DNA of 64,000 nucleotides from NCBI RefSeq assembly GCF_007988905.1, contig NZ_BJVA01000014.1, positions 1-64,000 on the forward strand, in the 5' to 3' direction. This stretch comes from Gluconobacter kanchanaburiensis NBRC 103587 (GTDB lineage: Bacteria; Pseudomonadota; Alphaproteobacteria; Acetobacterales; Acetobacteraceae). Below the pieces are notes generated by a model. The model ran no database searches, was not told the origin of the DNA, and saw only the letters and a program-made list of their open reading frames with translations. A program made the position numbers and the translations under genes. Below, piece by piece: positions 57,425 to 64,000 of this stretch (its first letter is position 1; each line of letters starts with the position of its first letter).

Positions 57425-57599
57425 GGGCAGACCCTCTCAATCAGGAGGAAAAAGCGAGAGAAACCGGAAAACATACCATCAGTGTCGGGAATATCCGATC
57501 CGATGTCGAGACATGTCTCGAAAATGTTCCCTCAATGCCTTCCAAAAGCCTGTCTCTGCCGTCAGGAGACGGCACCTGTGAGCGCGGCCGCGAAGGATG

Positions 57600-58270
57600 C
57601 ACCATATGACGACGAAGACTGCGACTGGCCGAAACGGAATTGCAGCGGACTACACTCACCTGCTCTACCATGGCCGCGCTCCTCAGGGTCATCTGCTTCA
57701 TTTCGTTGATGACCTAAGTGAATCCTCTCGAGGCTTTCCGCCTCACCGGTCGTGGAATGGGAGATATCCTCAAGCGGCAACGTAATGCCGTCGACAGGCT
57801 CGCTAATGACGTTCATCGAACAGTAGGCTTCACCCACAAGTTGCACACCTTCCTCGACCTGTCGTCCTGAGGACATAATGATGTTGCGAATATCCTGCGC
57901 CAATTTTTCCGTACTCTGCGCAAGGACACGGATTTCCTTGGTCAGCACATCGAAGTCCTGTCCGGCTCCACCCGCACGTGCGGCCTCGATTATGGCCGCA
58001 TTCGCGGAATGCATGATCACCGAAATCACACCTGTCTGACCACGCATTTCCAGAGCTGTTCCACGGGCTTCGACCGCCGAACGCGCGGTCTGCCCCACAG
58101 TCTGAGTGGTGCTTGGGTGGTGCTATTGATGGAAGCGGAATCTCCGCGAGATTGCCTGCCTGACGCTCCGTGCGCTCACTCAGTTCTGCAGAAGCGGGCA
58201 CGATTTCGGACGTCGCATCGGAAATTTTGGCAGTTGCCGTGCGGTAGATCTGGATCATAAATTCTGCCGG
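57600..58270 (-). pseudogene. Decayed methyl-accepting chemotaxis protein
   Basis: Reading leftward, the frame SDATSEIVPASAELSERTERQ (near 58250-58140) is typical of the MCP helical bundle start. After a frameshift follow SANAAIIEAARAGGAGQDFD, EIRVLAQSTEKLAQDIRNII and RQVEEGVQLVGEAYCSMNVI, and finally INEMKQMTLRSAAMVEQVSV. The MCP hairpin tip (usually ILALNAAVEAARAG) appears as ANAAIIEAARAG. Several frameshifts separate the pieces. No intact receptor or other chemotaxis gene is in the window. The region 58271-58774 probably includes its lost N-terminus but shows nothing identifiable. Confidence 0.75.
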
Positions 58271-58774
58271 AATTCTTCATGCCGGCCCTGAAACTCTTCC
58301 CGAAACGTGAAGGTCAGATCACCCTCTTTACGAACTCCATTCCAGCACAGATCGTTCCGAGCGTATCGTCCTGAACGCGGCAGATATTCTCACTCCGGCT
58401 GGAAAGGTCTTTCTGGATGCAGGCAGCTTCCCGCGCTTCATGAGCGGAGTTTTCCCAAAATTTCAGATGGTTCCAGCTATTTTCATGAAACACCTGAAGG
58501 AAACGCGCCAGGCGGCCTGCATACCGGGAGAGAGCCTCGATTTTCTGACGGACATTGGAAGTTTTCCAATCTCATGAAGCATGATGGTCATTTTTACCTA
58601 CGGCCTCACATGATTTTCGGAAAAGTCGTGTGATATTTTCTAAATCCAGGCGTGTCGTTACTAATGACAGGTAAAAATTTCTCTCGAAATTGTTTGAAAT
58701 ACATAACGAACCGAACGCCCACACCCGGCTGGACCAATATTGACAATTTCGCGCCCAGGGAGGATTGGTGGCGT

Positions 58775-58890
58775 TTCACCGTGGGGAGCCCGGCAAAGGG
58801 CTGAGATTCTGCTGGTATATCCGTCAAGGACCGCGCGGCGCAGTGACCCATTGAACCTGATCCAGTTCGTACTGGCGGAGGGATGGTGGT
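58775..58890 (+). promoter_or_regulatory. TPP (thiamine pyrophosphate) riboswitch
   Basis: GTGGGGAGCCCGGCAAAGGG followed by CTGAGAT (58781-58807), and GACCCATTGAACCTGATCCA (58844-58863) followed after 7 bases by GGCGGAGGGATGGTGG, are the two conserved halves of the THI-box. CACC at 58777-58780 can pair with GGTG at 58885-58888 as P1. It lies about 100 bp before the start codon of a TonB-dependent receptor on the same strand. TPP binding would reduce expression of the receptor, kinase and permease genes behind it. Confidence 0.93.
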
Positions 58891-58992
58891 CGCTGTCTGC
58901 CCGACGCATAATCATGCAGGACGCAGCCGGCAGCTTGAACCTTTCCTGTCAGAGCTGAGATCTCATTGCTTGCAGGCGAGGAGTCTCTCATC

Positions 58993-61416
58993 ATGGCATA
59001 CAGATCGTACCGCAGCGTCCTGCCCGTCCTGATCGGCACGACGGTCTGTCTGTCAACCGCGGGTGCCGCCGACAGGCCTTCTCCCCGCGCCCTGGAGGTC
59101 ACACAGAGCGGGGCAATCTCCCCGTCAAAATCTGCGGCACATTCTACCTACGCCCGGCCTTCGCCCCACCCCGAACACATCATCGTCCACCGGCTTGCGG
59201 AGAGCGCGCCCGGAAACCAGCCGGGAGGCGGCCTAATCCATCTGCAGGACGGCGTGAAATCCGTCAGTACCGTCAGTCAGGATTTCATTTCCAAGCAGGC
59301 TCCCATGGCCACGGCCTTCCAGCTTGCCGCCATGCTACCCGGCGCCAATGTGTCCTCGTCCGATCCAATGGGATTTTCCCCCAATACCGACATCACCGTC
59401 CGCGGGCTCGATAACAGCGCTATCGGTTATGTGCTCGAAGGCATGCCGCTGAACGATGTCGCCGCCTATTCCGGCACGCCCAGCCAGTTCGCGGACAGTG
59501 AGAACTATCAGGAAATTGCCCTGTCACAGGGCTCGGCCGATCTGGACAGTCCGGTCCTGAACGCCGCCGGGGGCCTGATGAACCTGACCTTCCGCGACCC
59601 CGCCAAAAAAGCGGGTGGTGACGCCAGCGTGTCTTACGGATCCTACAACACCAACCGCGAATTCATCCGCCTCGACACTGGCGACATCGCCCATACCGGC
59701 ATCCGTGGCTTCGTCTCCTACTCCCATGGCGCGACCGACAACTGGCGCGGACCGGGACGCGACGAGAAGCAGCATGTCGATTTCAAGCTCCTCAAGGAAT
59801 GGGGGCAGGGCAACCGCGCCAGCCTCATCGGCACCTTCAACACGACCATCACGAGCTGGTATCCCGAACCCACCATGGACACATGGAAATTGGACGGGAT
59901 CAAAGGCCAGAACAACCTGCTGGCTCATTATGACAGCAGCAATCCGGAAAACGGCGCGAATTACTGGCGTCTGTGGCGGGACGGAGAGCGCACGCTTTAT
60001 GGCGGCGCGCCGGTCCATCTGACCCTGACCGACCATCTGACCCTGGACGTCACACCCTACGCGCAGCTTGCCTATGGCAACTGGCCAGGCGGAAGCACGC
60101 TGTCCGAAACCGGACTTTACCAAGGCACACAGGCCCTGTCGGACACGCTGAACCTCCCCGGCGCGCAGGACGGCGTGGGCGTTGTCCGCGCGGATTACAC
60201 CCAGCGCAGCTACCGTTCGGGCTTTACCAGCGCGCTGCACTACAAAACCGGCTGGAACGATTTCGTCCTCGGATACTGGTACGATTACGGCGACGACAAC
60301 GAGCAACAGCCCTTCACGGCGGTTCAGACCAATGGCTATGCCCCGGATATCTGGGCGCAAAACGGTCGCGACGTGATCCGCCTGTCCAACGGCGAACGCC
60401 TTCTGGGCGGCAGCTTCCACACCATTTCGCAGACCAACGCGCTGTTCATCGGCGACCACATGTCCCTGCTGCACGACCATCTGACCATCGACCTCGGCTT
60501 CAAGGCCGTCATGATGAGCCGCGATGGCACGAACAGCATGCCAGGCCCGCAATACCATGTCGGTTCCAACAGCATGGAGCCCCTGCCCCGCCTCGGCGTG
60601 CGCTGGCGCATTGACGCGGAAAACCAGCTCTTCTTCAACGCCACGACCAATTTCCGCGCCCCGGACCAGAGCGCGTTGTACAACACCTATGACCCCTCTT
60701 CGGGCGAAATGTACGGAACCGGATCGGCCGACGTTCGCAACGAATATTCCATTTCTGAAGAGCTGGGATACCGCCGCACGGGACGCTGGATCATCGGCAG
60801 CCTGACGCTGTTCAACTACAACTTCACCAATCGCCAGATCTCCACGCAGGCTGTCCAGAACGGCTCCATTGTCAGCACGACGATGAATGCGGGTGGCCAG
60901 ACCTCACGCGGCGTGGACGTAGAAATCGGCCTGCGCCCTTGGCATCATTTCAGCCCCTATGTCTCGGGCGAGTACCTGCATGCCACGATCGACAATGACC
61001 TTATGTCAGGCGGGGACCTTCTACGCACCCGCGGCCGCATCGCCGTCCGCAGCCCGACCCTTCAGGCCGCGGCCGGGCTGAGCTACGATGACGGGCATAT
61101 CTTCGGTGTCGCCACCGTGCATTACACCGGCCACCAGTACGCAACCTTCATGAATGACGAGCGCGTCTCGGATCACACGACCGGCGATCTCGCCATTGGC
61201 TACCGCTTCTCGGACCATATCCATCTGCATCAGCCGACCCTGCGGATGAATTTCATCAACATCACGAACGAACACTACCTTTCCGGCGTGGCAAGCCCGA
61301 CCATGAATGCGAAAGACACGACCGGCGTGTATGGCACCACCATCGCCGGAAGTGCCCCGAGCTACTTCATCGGGGGCGGGTTTGCCGCACTGTTCACCGC
61401 TTCGACGGGGTTCTGA
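58993..61416 (+). CDS. TonB-dependent receptor, probable thiamine (or thiamine precursor) uptake
   Basis: An 807-residue outer-membrane receptor. ATG 58993 follows GAGGAG at 58978-58983; an earlier Met at 58966 gives no better start. The signal peptide ends near residue 26 (LSTAGA). The plug domain has DFISKQAPMATAFQLAAMLP near 98-117 and ITVRGLDNSAIGYVLEGMPL near 137-157, and the barrel ends in GFAALFTASTGF. The TPP riboswitch directly upstream, and the permease and kinase genes downstream, point to thiamine or a thiamine derivative as ligand. Thiamine import by TonB receptors is known in other proteobacteria (for example BtuB-like ThiB/OMR-type); here it is inferred from regulation. Confidence 0.92.
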   Translation: MAYRSYRSVLPVLIGTTVCLSTAGAADRPSPRALEVTQSGAISPSKSAAHSTYARPSPHPEHIIVHRLAESAPGNQPGGGLIHLQDGVKSVSTVSQDFISKQAPMATAFQLAAMLPGANVSSSDPMGFSPNTDITVRGLDNSAIGYVLEGMPLNDVAAYSGTPSQFADSENYQEIALSQGSADLDSPVLNAAGGLMNLTFRDPAKKAGGDASVSYGSYNTNREFIRLDTGDIAHTGIRGFVSYSHGATDNWRGPGRDEKQHVDFKLLKEWGQGNRASLIGTFNTTITSWYPEPTMDTWKLDGIKGQNNLLAHYDSSNPENGANYWRLWRDGERTLYGGAPVHLTLTDHLTLDVTPYAQLAYGNWPGGSTLSETGLYQGTQALSDTLNLPGAQDGVGVVRADYTQRSYRSGFTSALHYKTGWNDFVLGYWYDYGDDNEQQPFTAVQTNGYAPDIWAQNGRDVIRLSNGERLLGGSFHTISQTNALFIGDHMSLLHDHLTIDLGFKAVMMSRDGTNSMPGPQYHVGSNSMEPLPRLGVRWRIDAENQLFFNATTNFRAPDQSALYNTYDPSSGEMYGTGSADVRNEYSISEELGYRRTGRWIIGSLTLFNYNFTNRQISTQAVQNGSIVSTTMNAGGQTSRGVDVEIGLRPWHHFSPYVSGEYLHATIDNDLMSGGDLLRTRGRIAVRSPTLQAAAGLSYDDGHIFGVATVHYTGHQYATFMNDERVSDHTTGDLAIGYRFSDHIHLHQPTLRMNFINITNEHYLSGVASPTMNAKDTTGVYGTTIAGSAPSYFIGGGFAALFTASTGF

Positions 61417-61418
61417 GC

Positions 61419-62573
61419 ATGGCGGAGGCTTCCGGGCAGTTCGGCGTCAACGGCCTCGAAAACAGACGGGACTGGCCTGCGCTGGCCGATCCCGAGGTCC
61501 GAAGGGTTCTCTCCCATTTTCCACTACCGGCTCCGGCCCGGCAGGTAGTCTGGCATGGTCGGCGACCATTTTCCTCAACGGGCGTTGTATCACTTGAAAA
61601 CGGAAGCCGCGTCTTCGTCAAACGCCATGACCATTGCCTGCGCAACGCCACAGCGCTAGCGGAAGAACACCGCTTCATCGCGCACCTGTCCGGAAGAGGC
61701 ATTCCCGTTGGCCAGACGTGGCGCACGACTGATGGTCAGGCCGCTCTCGACTTCAATGGATCAGCCTACGAGGTTTTCTCCATCATGCCCGGCCATGACC
61801 TGTACGAGACCGTGCAGTCCTGGGAGCCGTTCCACAACATCAGGCACGCCTTTTCAGCCGGCCTGCATCTTGGTCAGCTTCATGAGGCGGCAAGGAGTTT
61901 CGATGCTCCTGCACGCCCCTCATCACGCCCCCTGCTTTCAACATTCGAAGTCATCACATCCCCCGATCTGATGGCGGGTCTGAACTGCTGGATTCCCCAA
62001 CAATCGGGACTGGCAGAAGCTCTGACACGACACTTCTGGCGAAAAGACATCCCGGCGGCCCTGCTGAAATTTCATGAACGGCTTAAACCGCACTTATCAG
62101 AAATCCAGCCGCGCTGGGGACATGGCGACTGGCACCCATCAAACCTCTTCTGGGATGACACCGGTCCGGATGCCCAGATCTGCGGCATTCTGGATTTTGG
62201 CATGTCCGACCAGACCTGTGCTGCCTATGATCTGGCCGTCGCCATTGAGCGGAGCGCCATCGAATGGCTGCGTCCAGAAAATGACTGTCCGGTCGCCTTC
62301 GACAGACTAGACGCATTTCTACGCGGATATCAGACCCGGTATACAATTTCTGATACGGAGCGCTCGCTGGTATCGCTCTTTCTTCCTCTGGTCCATGTTG
62401 AATATGCACTCTCGGAAGTCGCGTATTATGAGACGCTGGTTCATGACCAAAACGGCGTAAAAGCAGCCTATACGGACTACCTCCTTGGGCACGCGCACTG
62501 GTTTTCTTCCCCTAGCGGCCAGAAGATGCTGGACTGGCTTGAACAAACTCTCAAGACATCCGCATGTCCCTGA
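61419..62573 (+). CDS. Phosphotransferase (APH-fold) kinase, probable thiamine kinase
   Basis: A 384-residue kinase-fold protein. Catalytic motif GHGDWHPSNLFWDD near residue 230 contains the catalytic Asp and Asn, and ICGILDFGMSDQTCAAYDLA near 250 the Mg-binding Asp. The N-terminal nucleotide lobe holds VSLENGSRVFVKRHDHCLRN near 55. These are the features of aminoglycoside/choline/thiamine kinases. It begins 3 bases after the receptor stop and overlaps the permease start by 10 bases, so it belongs to the riboswitch operon. Phosphorylating imported thiamine would trap it. The substrate is inferred. Confidence 0.82.
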   Translation: MAEASGQFGVNGLENRRDWPALADPEVRRVLSHFPLPAPARQVVWHGRRPFSSTGVVSLENGSRVFVKRHDHCLRNATALAEEHRFIAHLSGRGIPVGQTWRTTDGQAALDFNGSAYEVFSIMPGHDLYETVQSWEPFHNIRHAFSAGLHLGQLHEAARSFDAPARPSSRPLLSTFEVITSPDLMAGLNCWIPQQSGLAEALTRHFWRKDIPAALLKFHERLKPHLSEIQPRWGHGDWHPSNLFWDDTGPDAQICGILDFGMSDQTCAAYDLAVAIERSAIEWLRPENDCPVAFDRLDAFLRGYQTRYTISDTERSLVSLFLPLVHVEYALSEVAYYETLVHDQNGVKAAYTDYLLGHAHWFSSPSGQKMLDWLEQTLKTSACP

Positions 62574-63145
62574 TCGAAGTTCTAGGTGCGGTTCTCAGTG
62601 CCCTCGCCGTCTGGCTGACGTCCCGCCGTAGCATGATCTGCTGGCCGGTGTCGCTGACAGCAGCGGGCCTGTACTGCTGGATTTTCCTTAAAGCACGCCT
62701 TTACGCCGATGCGGGACTTCAGATCGCCTTCTGCCTTTATGTTGTCTATGGCTGGCGCCACTGGCAGAAAATACAGAGCCCGGATGGCCGCATCCAGGTT
62801 CGACGCCCCAAAACTGTTGCGATTCTAAAAGGACTATTATCGGGTGCGACAGGAAGCGCCGTATGGGCCTTCATTCTGGCACGGTTCACTAATGATCCAA
62901 CCCCAATTACCGACGCGACACTGACCGCCTACAGCATGCTTGCCCAATATTGGGATACGATGCGCTACAGAGAAACATGGGCCCTGTGGATCGTGGTAGA
63001 CAGCGCATATGTGGCTCTATTCATCAGTCGCGGCCTTTATCCCACAGCAATGCTTTATGCCGGGTTTGTTATACTTGCTGCCTATGGTTATCGCCTCTGG
63101 AAACCCGAGGCTTCAATCCGGGTCATTGCCAACACAGATATGTGA
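62564..63145 (+). CDS. PnuC-family permease, probable thiamine transporter PnuT
   Basis: A 193-residue inner-membrane protein with seven hydrophobic segments. The PnuC pattern is visible: VLGAVLSALAVWLTSRRSMI near residues 6-25, WPVSLTAAGLYCWIFLKARL near 28-47, then YVVYGWRHWQK near 60. PnuC relatives carry nicotinamide riboside; the PnuT branch carries thiamine and is typically under TPP riboswitch control. The operon position supports PnuT. The start codon lies 10 bases inside the kinase frame. Confidence 0.86.
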   Translation: MSLIEVLGAVLSALAVWLTSRRSMICWPVSLTAAGLYCWIFLKARLYADAGLQIAFCLYVVYGWRHWQKIQSPDGRIQVRRPKTVAILKGLLSGATGSAVWAFILARFTNDPTPITDATLTAYSMLAQYWDTMRYRETWALWIVVDSAYVALFISRGLYPTAMLYAGFVILAAYGYRLWKPEASIRVIANTDM

Positions 63146-63263: not shown

Positions 63264-64000
63264 ATGGTCATAATGGAAGGAAAAGAACTGGTTCTTCATT
63301 ATAATGAAGGAAAAACAGAATACTGTGTCATAACTTTTCCAGGAAGATTTCATACCCATGAGGCAAAAGAAAAATTTTTTGGCGGAAATATTTTTGCAAA
63401 AAATGATATTTCGTCTATTGGACTAACAACAAAAATAGACAACTGGTTTATATGCGATGAAATAGATGAATTTATTGAAAAAATAAAGGAAATATCATCA
63501 AAATACACTAAAATTGTTGCAATAGGTCCATCCATGGGATCGTACCCGGCTATAAAGTATTCTAAAAAATTAAATATCCATAGAATACTTTCGCTAGCCC
63601 CAAAATGGACGATAGATCCTAAACTAATACACTCTGAACCTGATAAAATAAGAGATGGACTACTAAGCGATGACATGAATTCTTTAATAGAAAATATTTT
63701 TTCTGATGAAAAATCAGGCCACTGCATAGAATCCGGCGACGTCAACAATGAATTAATCGTTTGCTATGATACATATAGAAAATTGGATAAATTCAATGTC
63801 CAAAAATTAAGAACCATCATTAACTTTGAAGAAGTGTTATTTCCTAAATGTGGTCACGTTATTATTGATCAACTTCAAGGATCCGAAAATCTTCTTAAAA
63901 TTGTTCACTCATTAGTTTATGATGATATAAAAACAACCTGTGAACTTCTAACAAAAATCAGAAGATCACATAAAAATAAAATCAAGAAGTATTACGATGT
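63264..64000 (+). CDS. Alpha/beta-hydrolase-like protein, cut by the window end
   Basis: An open frame from ATG 63264 (or 63273) with no stop to the last base; at least 245 residues. It begins MVIMEGKELVLHYNEGKTEY. The nucleophile elbow is KIVAIGPSMGSYPAIKYSKK near 84-103 with Ser in GPSMG, and a candidate catalytic His is in FPKCGHVIIDQL near 198. The C-terminal part is lysine-rich (RRSHKNKIKKYYD). Codon use is extremely AT-rich compared with the upstream genes. Similar hydrolase domains are found in capsule or glycosyltransferase-linked proteins; I cannot assign function. A minus-strand frame at 63350-63748 is its shadow. Confidence 0.7.
   Translation, partial: MVIMEGKELVLHYNEGKTEYCVITFPGRFHTHEAKEKFFGGNIFAKNDISSIGLTTKIDNWFICDEIDEFIEKIKEISSKYTKIVAIGPSMGSYPAIKYSKKLNIHRILSLAPKWTIDPKLIHSEPDKIRDGLLSDDMNSLIENIFSDEKSGHCIESGDVNNELIVCYDTYRKLDKFNVQKLRTIINFEEVLFPKCGHVIIDQLQGSENLLKIVHSLVYDDIKTTCELLTKIRRSHKNKIKKYYD

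Follow-up and report, generated by a model that had tools for sequence, protein, structure and literature searches.

INTRODUCTION

Which nutrient do the products of a riboswitch-led operon in the acetic acid bacterium Gluconobacter kanchanaburiensis NBRC 103587 carry and phosphorylate? The operon lies in a stretch of 64,000 nucleotides (contig NZ_BJVA01000014.1, positions 1 to 64,000), which we call the window, and consists of a thiamine pyrophosphate (TPP) riboswitch followed by genes for a TonB-dependent receptor, a kinase of the aminoglycoside phosphotransferase (APH) fold, and a PnuC-family permease. An original prediction, made from the sequence alone, took it for a complete operon for the salvage of thiamine (vitamin B1). 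Our results make it very likely that this is a TPP-repressed thiamine-salvage operon. We also consider it probable that its kinase belongs to a second family of thiamine kinases, unrelated to ThiK and found in Alpha-, Beta-, and Gammaproteobacteria and in Firmicutes. This family would form the fixed core of B1-salvage modules in which the receptor and the inner membrane transporter (PnuT or an ATP-binding cassette, ABC, system of the NMT1/THI5 type) are swapped, with one fusion to PnuT, and it would be the sole route from thiamine to thiamine monophosphate (TMP) in some acetic acid bacteria without thiamine synthesis.

In the mechanism that we propose, low cytoplasmic TPP would allow the riboswitch to permit reading of the message. 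Thiamine would then cross the outer membrane through the TonB-dependent receptor and equilibrate over the inner one by way of the PnuT-type permease; the APH-fold kinase would convert it to TMP, trapping it inside the cell. ThiL, which is encoded elsewhere, would make TPP, and TPP would close the riboswitch. PnuT works by facilitated diffusion, and the window permease would presumably do likewise. The product of a thiamine kinase is TMP, and ThiL is required to turn this into TPP, so the operon would end at TMP. The ThiL gene of this genome (G000) is on another contig (G000:C19:37472-38410), and calling the salvage operon complete was thus an overstatement.

Similar systems have been described. 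The Bacteroides system OMthi-PnuT-Tnr3 (BT2390 and BT2396-BT2397) combines TPP-riboswitch control, a TonB receptor, PnuT, and a thiamine enzyme; the three genes form a single operon in most genomes surveyed; and deletions in Bacteroides showed that the transporters make a difference when thiamine is scarce in strains deprived of biosynthesis (PMC5613172). GOX1347 of Gluconobacter oxydans has been tabulated as a predicted thiamin TonB-dependent transporter (PMC7142613, PMC3400609), and candidate thiamin receptor genes have been found co-localized with PnuT (PMC2771747). The kinase goes unmentioned in the excerpts of these three papers (PMC7142613, PMC3400609, PMC2771747). For G. oxydans 621H, one TPP riboswitch is given, before thiC (PMC5756330). 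Acetobacter pomorum, another acetic acid bacterium, supplies thiamine to Drosophila (PMC5845000).

The window operon resembles the OMthi system in its TPP riboswitch and TonB receptor and in its predicted PnuT-type permease and thiamine enzyme. The TonB-PnuT route under TPP control has been established in Bacteroidetes and predicted for Gluconobacter; the kinase is the added part. The suggestion that this locus would serve as an example of an outer-to-inner thiamine route holds in that the operon is real, but a Gluconobacter receptor had already been predicted and the co-localization with PnuT was in print.

RESULTS

A TPP riboswitch precedes genes for a receptor, a kinase, and a permease

The predicted riboswitch was borne out by Rfam. 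We found a full-length covariance-model match to the TPP aptamer (RF00059, model positions 1-105 of 105) on the plus strand at 58772-58900, scoring 66.2 bits against a gathering score of 54.3 (cmscan, E 8.5e-11). No other Rfam family reached its gathering score in a scan of the whole window with 4227 families. Three genes follow in the same direction. The first, whose ATG at 58993 lies 92 bases beyond the end of the aptamer, encodes the 807-aa receptor (58993-61416). Its frame ends 2 bases before the ATG of the 384-aa kinase (61419-62573), and the kinase gene overlaps that of the 193-aa permease (62564-63145) by 10 bases (62564-62573). Pfam placed TonB_dep_Rec_b-barrel and Plug (PF00593 and PF07715) at 58993-61413, APH (PF01636) at 61419-62570, and NMN_transporter, the PnuC family (PF04973), at 62564-63142. 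Both the families and the close packing of the genes therefore agree with what had been predicted. A TPP match followed by genes in this order was present in 5/5 Gluconobacter loci scanned (17 were fetched) and in 3/4 sphingomonad plasmid loci. Because order and TPP match recur in this way, the operon is no chance arrangement.

The receptor has the plug (PF07715, E 1.5e-8) and beta-barrel (PF00593, E 5.5e-26) domains behind a TPP riboswitch that are expected of an OMthi-type receptor, and we predict that it is a thiamine receptor. The receptors of the 17 Gluconobacter loci are close to it (1389-1743 bits). On the basis of these receptors, rather than of GOX1347 itself, GOX1347 is very probably its orthologue. 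The receptor had no relative among PDB sequences at 0.001. When Burkholderia, Herbaspirillum, and Acinetobacter loci were checked, no receptor of its type appeared at 1e-5.

Some relatives without thiamine-synthesis genes keep the kinase/TonB unit

We asked which thiamine enzymes accompany the kinase in Acetobacteraceae. Thirty of 200 genomes match the kinase strongly (best E 1.5e-55 or lower), and other kinase matches in the 200 are weak APH matches of 1e-8 or worse. These 30 kinase-positive genomes, together with 14 hand-picked genomes without a strong match, made up a test set of 44 that includes G000. The kinase match is cut by contig ends in two genomes (G180 and G128), and the kinases of G001 and G080 are unbroken, their open frames ending where the match ends. 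In G126 (locus L123), the kinase lies in two overlapping frames, through decay or a draft error.

ThiL was over its cut-off in 44/44 genomes. Thiamine pyrophosphokinase (TPK; PF04263) was found in only one of the 44, the kinase-negative G040, and was absent from G000. ThiK (TIGR02721) was over its cut-off in 0/44, and one control genome, presumably E. coli, passed. Sub-threshold ThiK matches of some size were confined to kinase-negative genomes (G140, 54.5 bits; G068, 51.7; G062, 29.5), and fragments of 19-20 bits occurred in four kinase-positive ones (G000, G001, G192, and G128). This hints that ThiK-like enzymes (G068 and G140) or TPK (G040) fill the slot where the kinase is missing. A search with the E. 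coli ThiK protein gave a match in 0/7 genomes; it had no positive control and is uninformative alone. ThiP was over its cut-off in 0/7 genomes tested, G000 included, with weak sub-threshold matches in G080, G049, and G128. Unlike Tnr3 of Bacteroides, which we take to be of the TPK type, the enzyme in the window is an APH-fold kinase in a genome without TPK, hence the predicted route through TMP and ThiL. In its predicted reaction, thiamine to TMP followed by ThiL, it is like E. coli ThiK (YcfN). In E. coli, loss of thiK is reported to abolish thiamine-dependent repression (PMC4112796).

ThiC is missing from 15/44 genomes, 7 of them kinase positive. Of these seven, G001 has ThiG, so that six of the 30 kinase-positive genomes, from five genera, are without both ThiC and ThiG (G080, G049, G128, G136, G032, and G070). 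Their best ThiG match is absent or at 2.7e-8 or weaker, and that of the other 24 is at 1e-80 or better. Three of the six also lack a convincing ThiE, with best PF02581 matches of 6.0e-6 (G136), 7.2e-8 (G032), and 1.2e-8 (G070); in the 23 kinase-positive genomes that have ThiC, the match is at 2.9e-35 or better. PF02581 matches strongly in G049 and G128, where the protein could be ThiE or a paralogue, and the best in G080 is 4.3e-17; we call none of these three ThiE-less.

The position of the riboswitch follows the same division. Adjacency was read by eye from the coordinates of Infernal matches, obtained with stricter filters that lose some weak ones. A TPP match adjoins the kinase/TonB unit in 12/30 kinase-positive genomes, namely in 6/6 of the auxotrophs and 6/24 of the others (hypergeometric P 0.0016, uncorrected for kinship). 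It lies directly 5' of a receptor-kinase-permease unit in 9/30 (G000, G136, G170, G158, G101, G032, G118, G070, and G066) and between kinase and receptor in 3/30 (G080, G049, and G128), where all matches are below the gathering score. G136, G032, and G070 each have a single TPP match, and it is located 5' of this operon.

These three genomes carry the argument. Because HMP (hydroxymethylpyrimidine) and thiazole cannot be joined without ThiC, ThiG, and ThiE, the cell must take up thiamine itself or thiamine phosphates. With ThiL present and neither TPK nor ThiK, a thiamine kinase is needed, and therefore the kinase of the operon is the evident candidate. The three are draft assemblies of 99-100% completeness, and an unknown enzyme could always substitute. 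Thiamine as the shared substrate, inferred in the original prediction, thus gains support from the six genomes without ThiC and ThiG, and in particular from the three that also lack a convincing ThiE.

In the other three auxotrophs, PnuT appears to be replaced by an NMT1/THI5-type ABC system. G080 has an ABC ATPase and permease directly 5' of the kinase and an NMT1/THI5-like protein 3' of the receptor (all Pfam typed). G049 has an NMT1-like protein 3' of the TonB gene (Pfam typed) and an ABC ATPase and permease 5' of the kinase (by eye), and G128 has an NMT1-like protein in the same place (by eye), with the upstream part on another contig. Since the ABC genes surround the same kinase and a TPP-linked receptor, PnuT appears to be exchangeable for a ThiXYZ-like system.

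G. kanchanaburiensis itself has a second TPP riboswitch on another contig, followed by thiC and a biosynthetic run (G000:C20:135-6408; L004). The run holds thiC, a ThiO-like oxidase, a small ThiS-like frame, thiG, thiE, and genes for ThiF/MoeB-like and ThiD-like proteins; ThiC, ThiG, and ThiE were identified by family search and the others were named by eye. With this thiC/thiG/thiE run, the species is predicted to make thiamine, and therefore the operon would be a salvage back-up there.

The kinase is not ThiK by sequence

The kinase is a clear APH-family protein (PF01636, 87.6 bits against a cut-off of 23.2). K68, H235, D237, N242, and D259 are unchanged in 34 aligned kinase rows, and we take these to be the catalytic Lys (K68), the HxDxxxxN loop (H235, D237, and N242), and the metal-binding Asp (D259). 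ThiK is also an APH-family protein. However, the window kinase has no meaningful pairwise or profile similarity to E. coli ThiK. The comparison of the two that had been proposed ruled ThiK out by sequence (BLASTP E 1.7; hhalign probability 1.3), and the ThiK models TIGR02721 and NF007620 (PRK10271) were not among the kinase's matches at E values up to 10. As a single query against PDB sequences, the kinase found nothing at 0.001, and its profile found only 5 distant APH-type chains.

In plasmid records, the relatives of the kinase bear no more specific name than "phosphotransferase" or "aminoglycoside phosphotransferase family protein." Among the papers listed in searches of the open-licence literature, we recognized none on the kinase, and a family of this kind, unlike ThiK in sequence, seems to be unreported. 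The genomic case is that it may be the missing thiamine kinase in many Proteobacteria. If so, the annotations of kinases now named phosphotransferase could be fixed, and the vitamin B1 needs of gut, plant, and fermentation bacteria could be better predicted.

The kinase is the constant member of a variable unit

We scanned GTDB contigs with a nine-member kinase alignment, confirmed 511 stretches, and kept the best 80. In 80/80 of the kept loci, the kinase has a co-directional gene for a receptor, a Pnu permease, or an ABC transporter no more than about 4.6 kb away. The receptor label derives from the window receptor and four locus receptors, and it means a TonB receptor rather than one orthologous family. 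The commonest arrangements are receptor-permease-kinase (29/80), receptor-kinase-permease (18/80), and receptor-kinase (16/80). Eight loci, all from Firmicutes, have two NMT1/THI5-like proteins, kinase, ABC permease, ATPase, and rhodanese (one with an additional ATPase match), and six have receptor, NMT1-like protein, permease, kinase, and rhodanese. The remainder are single cases of kinase-permease, of receptor-permease-kinase with a second receptor, and of a receptor with a permease-kinase fusion (L069). Carriers of the kinase family include Acetobacteraceae, sphingomonads, Burkholderiales, Acinetobacter plasmids, and Firmicutes, next to varied B1-type transporters. Because the kinase stands beside transporters in all 80 loci while the receptor and permease types change, it is the constant member of the unit.

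The fusion, in Robbsia andropogonis (L069:5266-7179), encodes both permease and kinase in a single 637-aa open frame, with PF04973 at 4-184, a linker, and PF01636 at 299-547; the match to the kinase family spans 246-627. It is the only one-frame case among all loci compared. Fusion of a transporter to the enzyme expected to trap what it carries is good evidence for a shared substrate.

These loci also bear on whether the kinase is a stray, an APH protein of the homoserine kinase or protein kinase kind that merely sits with a thiamine riboswitch and thiamine transporters, the thiamine being trapped in some other way. Its best curated-model matches are indeed to homoserine kinase and SrkA-type models, both sub-threshold, and its top fold match is N-acetylhexosamine 1-kinase. 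A stray would not be expected beside transporters of varying type in 80/80 loci, nor fused to the permease in one species, and the auxotrophs have no other evident source of TMP. We regard a stray kinase as extremely unlikely.

Sulfurovum mangrovi follows a like module logic, with a TPP riboswitch in front. Its plasmid locus L136 reads TPP, TonB, PnuC family, kinase, TPP, thiS, thiG, and the record has both the receptor gene and the permease gene split. The L136 kinase is ThiK-like (TIGR02721, 60.3 bits, below the cut-off of 299.45) and resembles the window kinase only in the catalytic loop.

We made several further observations on these loci. The Acinetobacter plasmids L010, L012, L013, and L142 carry triads of kinase, TonB, and PnuC-like genes. 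Among 35 plasmid records that carry the kinase, 25 come from Acinetobacter and 24 are typed mobilizable; since the unit is plasmid borne, mostly on such records, it may travel. The NMT1/THI5-like protein and the rhodanese recur by the kinase in L077, L082, L085, and L088-L092 (Firmicutes) and in L031-L034, L039, and L048 (Paraburkholderia/Burkholderia). By eye, those NMT1/THI5-like proteins start without a signal peptide, and if they are cytoplasmic, they would have a role other than that of a binding protein. A record labeled "Bacteriophage sp." from human feces (L143; MT837608.1), with a Sphingomonas-like receptor, kinase, and permease, is most likely a bacterial contig.

The permease probably groups apart from nicotinamide riboside transporters

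The permease is a strong match to PF04973 (164.3 bits against a cut-off of 27.3, E 3.5e-48), a family that includes both PnuT and PnuC, the transporter of nicotinamide riboside (NR). We built a tree of 43 permease rows, 6 of them of the NR type (E. coli, Persicobacter, Nostoc, Miltoncostaea, Vibrio, and phage D414). The NR-type rows were assigned by their NAD-related or nucleoside-gene neighbors, that of E. coli by annotation, and the rows include no experimentally proven PnuT. The window permease falls in a group of 35 rows, 34 from kinase loci (the window included) and one from Acinetobacter baumannii. The group contains 0/6 of the NR-type rows, with support of 82/96, which is short of the tree tool's star. 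Trp139 and Trp142 are common to all 43 rows, and Tyr149 is present in 34/37 of the other rows versus 0/6 of the NR-type rows.

Several results count against reading the locus as a thiamine-salvage operon. The A. baumannii row in the unstarred group has no kinase neighbor. The TPP-linked Sulfurovum row is outside the group, although its placement is unsure because it is a gene piece from a split record on a very long branch. The window permease passes the NCBIfam model for NR transporters (TIGR01528, 80.4 bits against 42.45), and since this score is above the cut-off, the model would name it PnuC. In the stricter-filter search, 18/30 kinase-positive Acetobacteraceae had no TPP match by the unit; one of them, G030, is not assessable, as its unit begins near a contig end. 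No TPP match at the gathering score was found in four Acinetobacter plasmid kinase loci, five Burkholderiales pnu loci, four Herbaspirillum/Duganella loci, two Acetobacter loci, and seven Firmicutes loci scanned, and a permissive rescan of five such loci gave no TPP match up to E 0.5. The TonB gene of G136 (L126), one of the three genomes on which the argument rests most, is split into two open frames by decay or a draft error. Finally, TPK is present in 4/4 Firmicutes genomes tested; it was absent from 6/6 Gram-negative kinase carriers outside the 44-genome set.

The permease results raise the question of whether this is an NR system, in which PnuC would import NR and the APH kinase would make nicotinamide mononucleotide. 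Besides the model score, the sole PDB sequence match of the permease is the NR transporter 4QTN (E 1.9e-6), plasmid records call its relatives PnuC, and in L142 a gene for an e(P4)-type 5'-nucleotidase lies 3' of the Acinetobacter triad. We nevertheless find an NR system very unlikely. In the window, Rfam gave only the TPP riboswitch at gathering score, the NR-type rows fall outside the window's tree group and have no Tyr149, and the partner is an APH-fold kinase rather than one of the P-loop type, as is found by Persicobacter PnuC. The expectation that the permease would not group with NR PnuC is in line with the tree, at its unstarred support, but not with the NCBIfam model.

The Firmicutes results raise another reading. 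Because TPK is present there, the kinase would be redundant in Firmicutes if thiamine were its substrate, which may there be another compound. An operon of this kind might instead salvage a precursor or breakdown product, such as HMP, formylaminopyrimidine, or hydroxyethylthiazole, which the kinase would phosphorylate. Known members of the NMT1/THI5 family handle pyrimidine precursors, and such proteins accompany the kinase in the ABC-type Acetobacteraceae and in 8/8 Firmicutes loci, where they were assigned by similarity to proteins Pfam typed in a single locus. The same 8/8 Firmicutes loci and six Paraburkholderia/Burkholderia loci also include a rhodanese gene in the run. However, in G032, G070, and G136 this operon is the one TPP-riboswitch unit retained, and precursors would be useless to them because ThiC, ThiG, and a convincing ThiE are missing. 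The window's genome, in turn, is predicted to make both halves of thiamine itself. We therefore judge precursor salvage to be improbable for the window operon and favor the uptake and phosphorylation of thiamine.

Leader of the operon

We aligned the leader of the window with those of 8 other Gluconobacter loci (n=9). A TTGACA at 58740-58745 on the plus strand is a likely -35 promoter element. Its TGACA (58741-58745) is unchanged across the 9 leaders, and its first T is visible in 7/9, the remaining two stretches starting one base later. This conserved TTGACA was absent from the output of a simple promoter scan. Shortly 5' of the start codon, TTGCAGGCG is unchanged in 9/9 leaders, and the purine-rich bases 3' of it are variable.

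A predicted stem at 58940-58981 on the plus strand pairs GGCGAGG of the ribosome-binding region and could serve as the expression platform, a hairpin that turns translation off. The ribosome-binding region is paired by such a stem in 5/5 folded leaders. The stem of the window leader is no more stable than shuffled sequences (z 0.38), nor is the whole window leader fold (z -0.08); the stems of the other four leaders gave z values of -1.10 to -1.78. Because the window stem is not stabler than shuffles, we rate the hairpin as suggestive only. Its 5' strand could, by eye, pair with the 3' side of the aptamer when TPP is absent. Translational repression is the likely mode of control.

Genes around the operon

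On the minus strand 5' of the operon (57562-58258) is a remnant of a methyl-accepting chemotaxis protein gene, apparently decayed. A 177-aa frame covers only positions 55-167 of the 172-position signaling domain, and a second frame overlaps it. Directly 3' of the operon, an AT-rich open frame runs from 63264 to 63998 and beyond. It is weakly hydrolase-like (Pfam Hydrolase_4, E 0.014, below the cut-off), and by eye its composition is unlike its surroundings.

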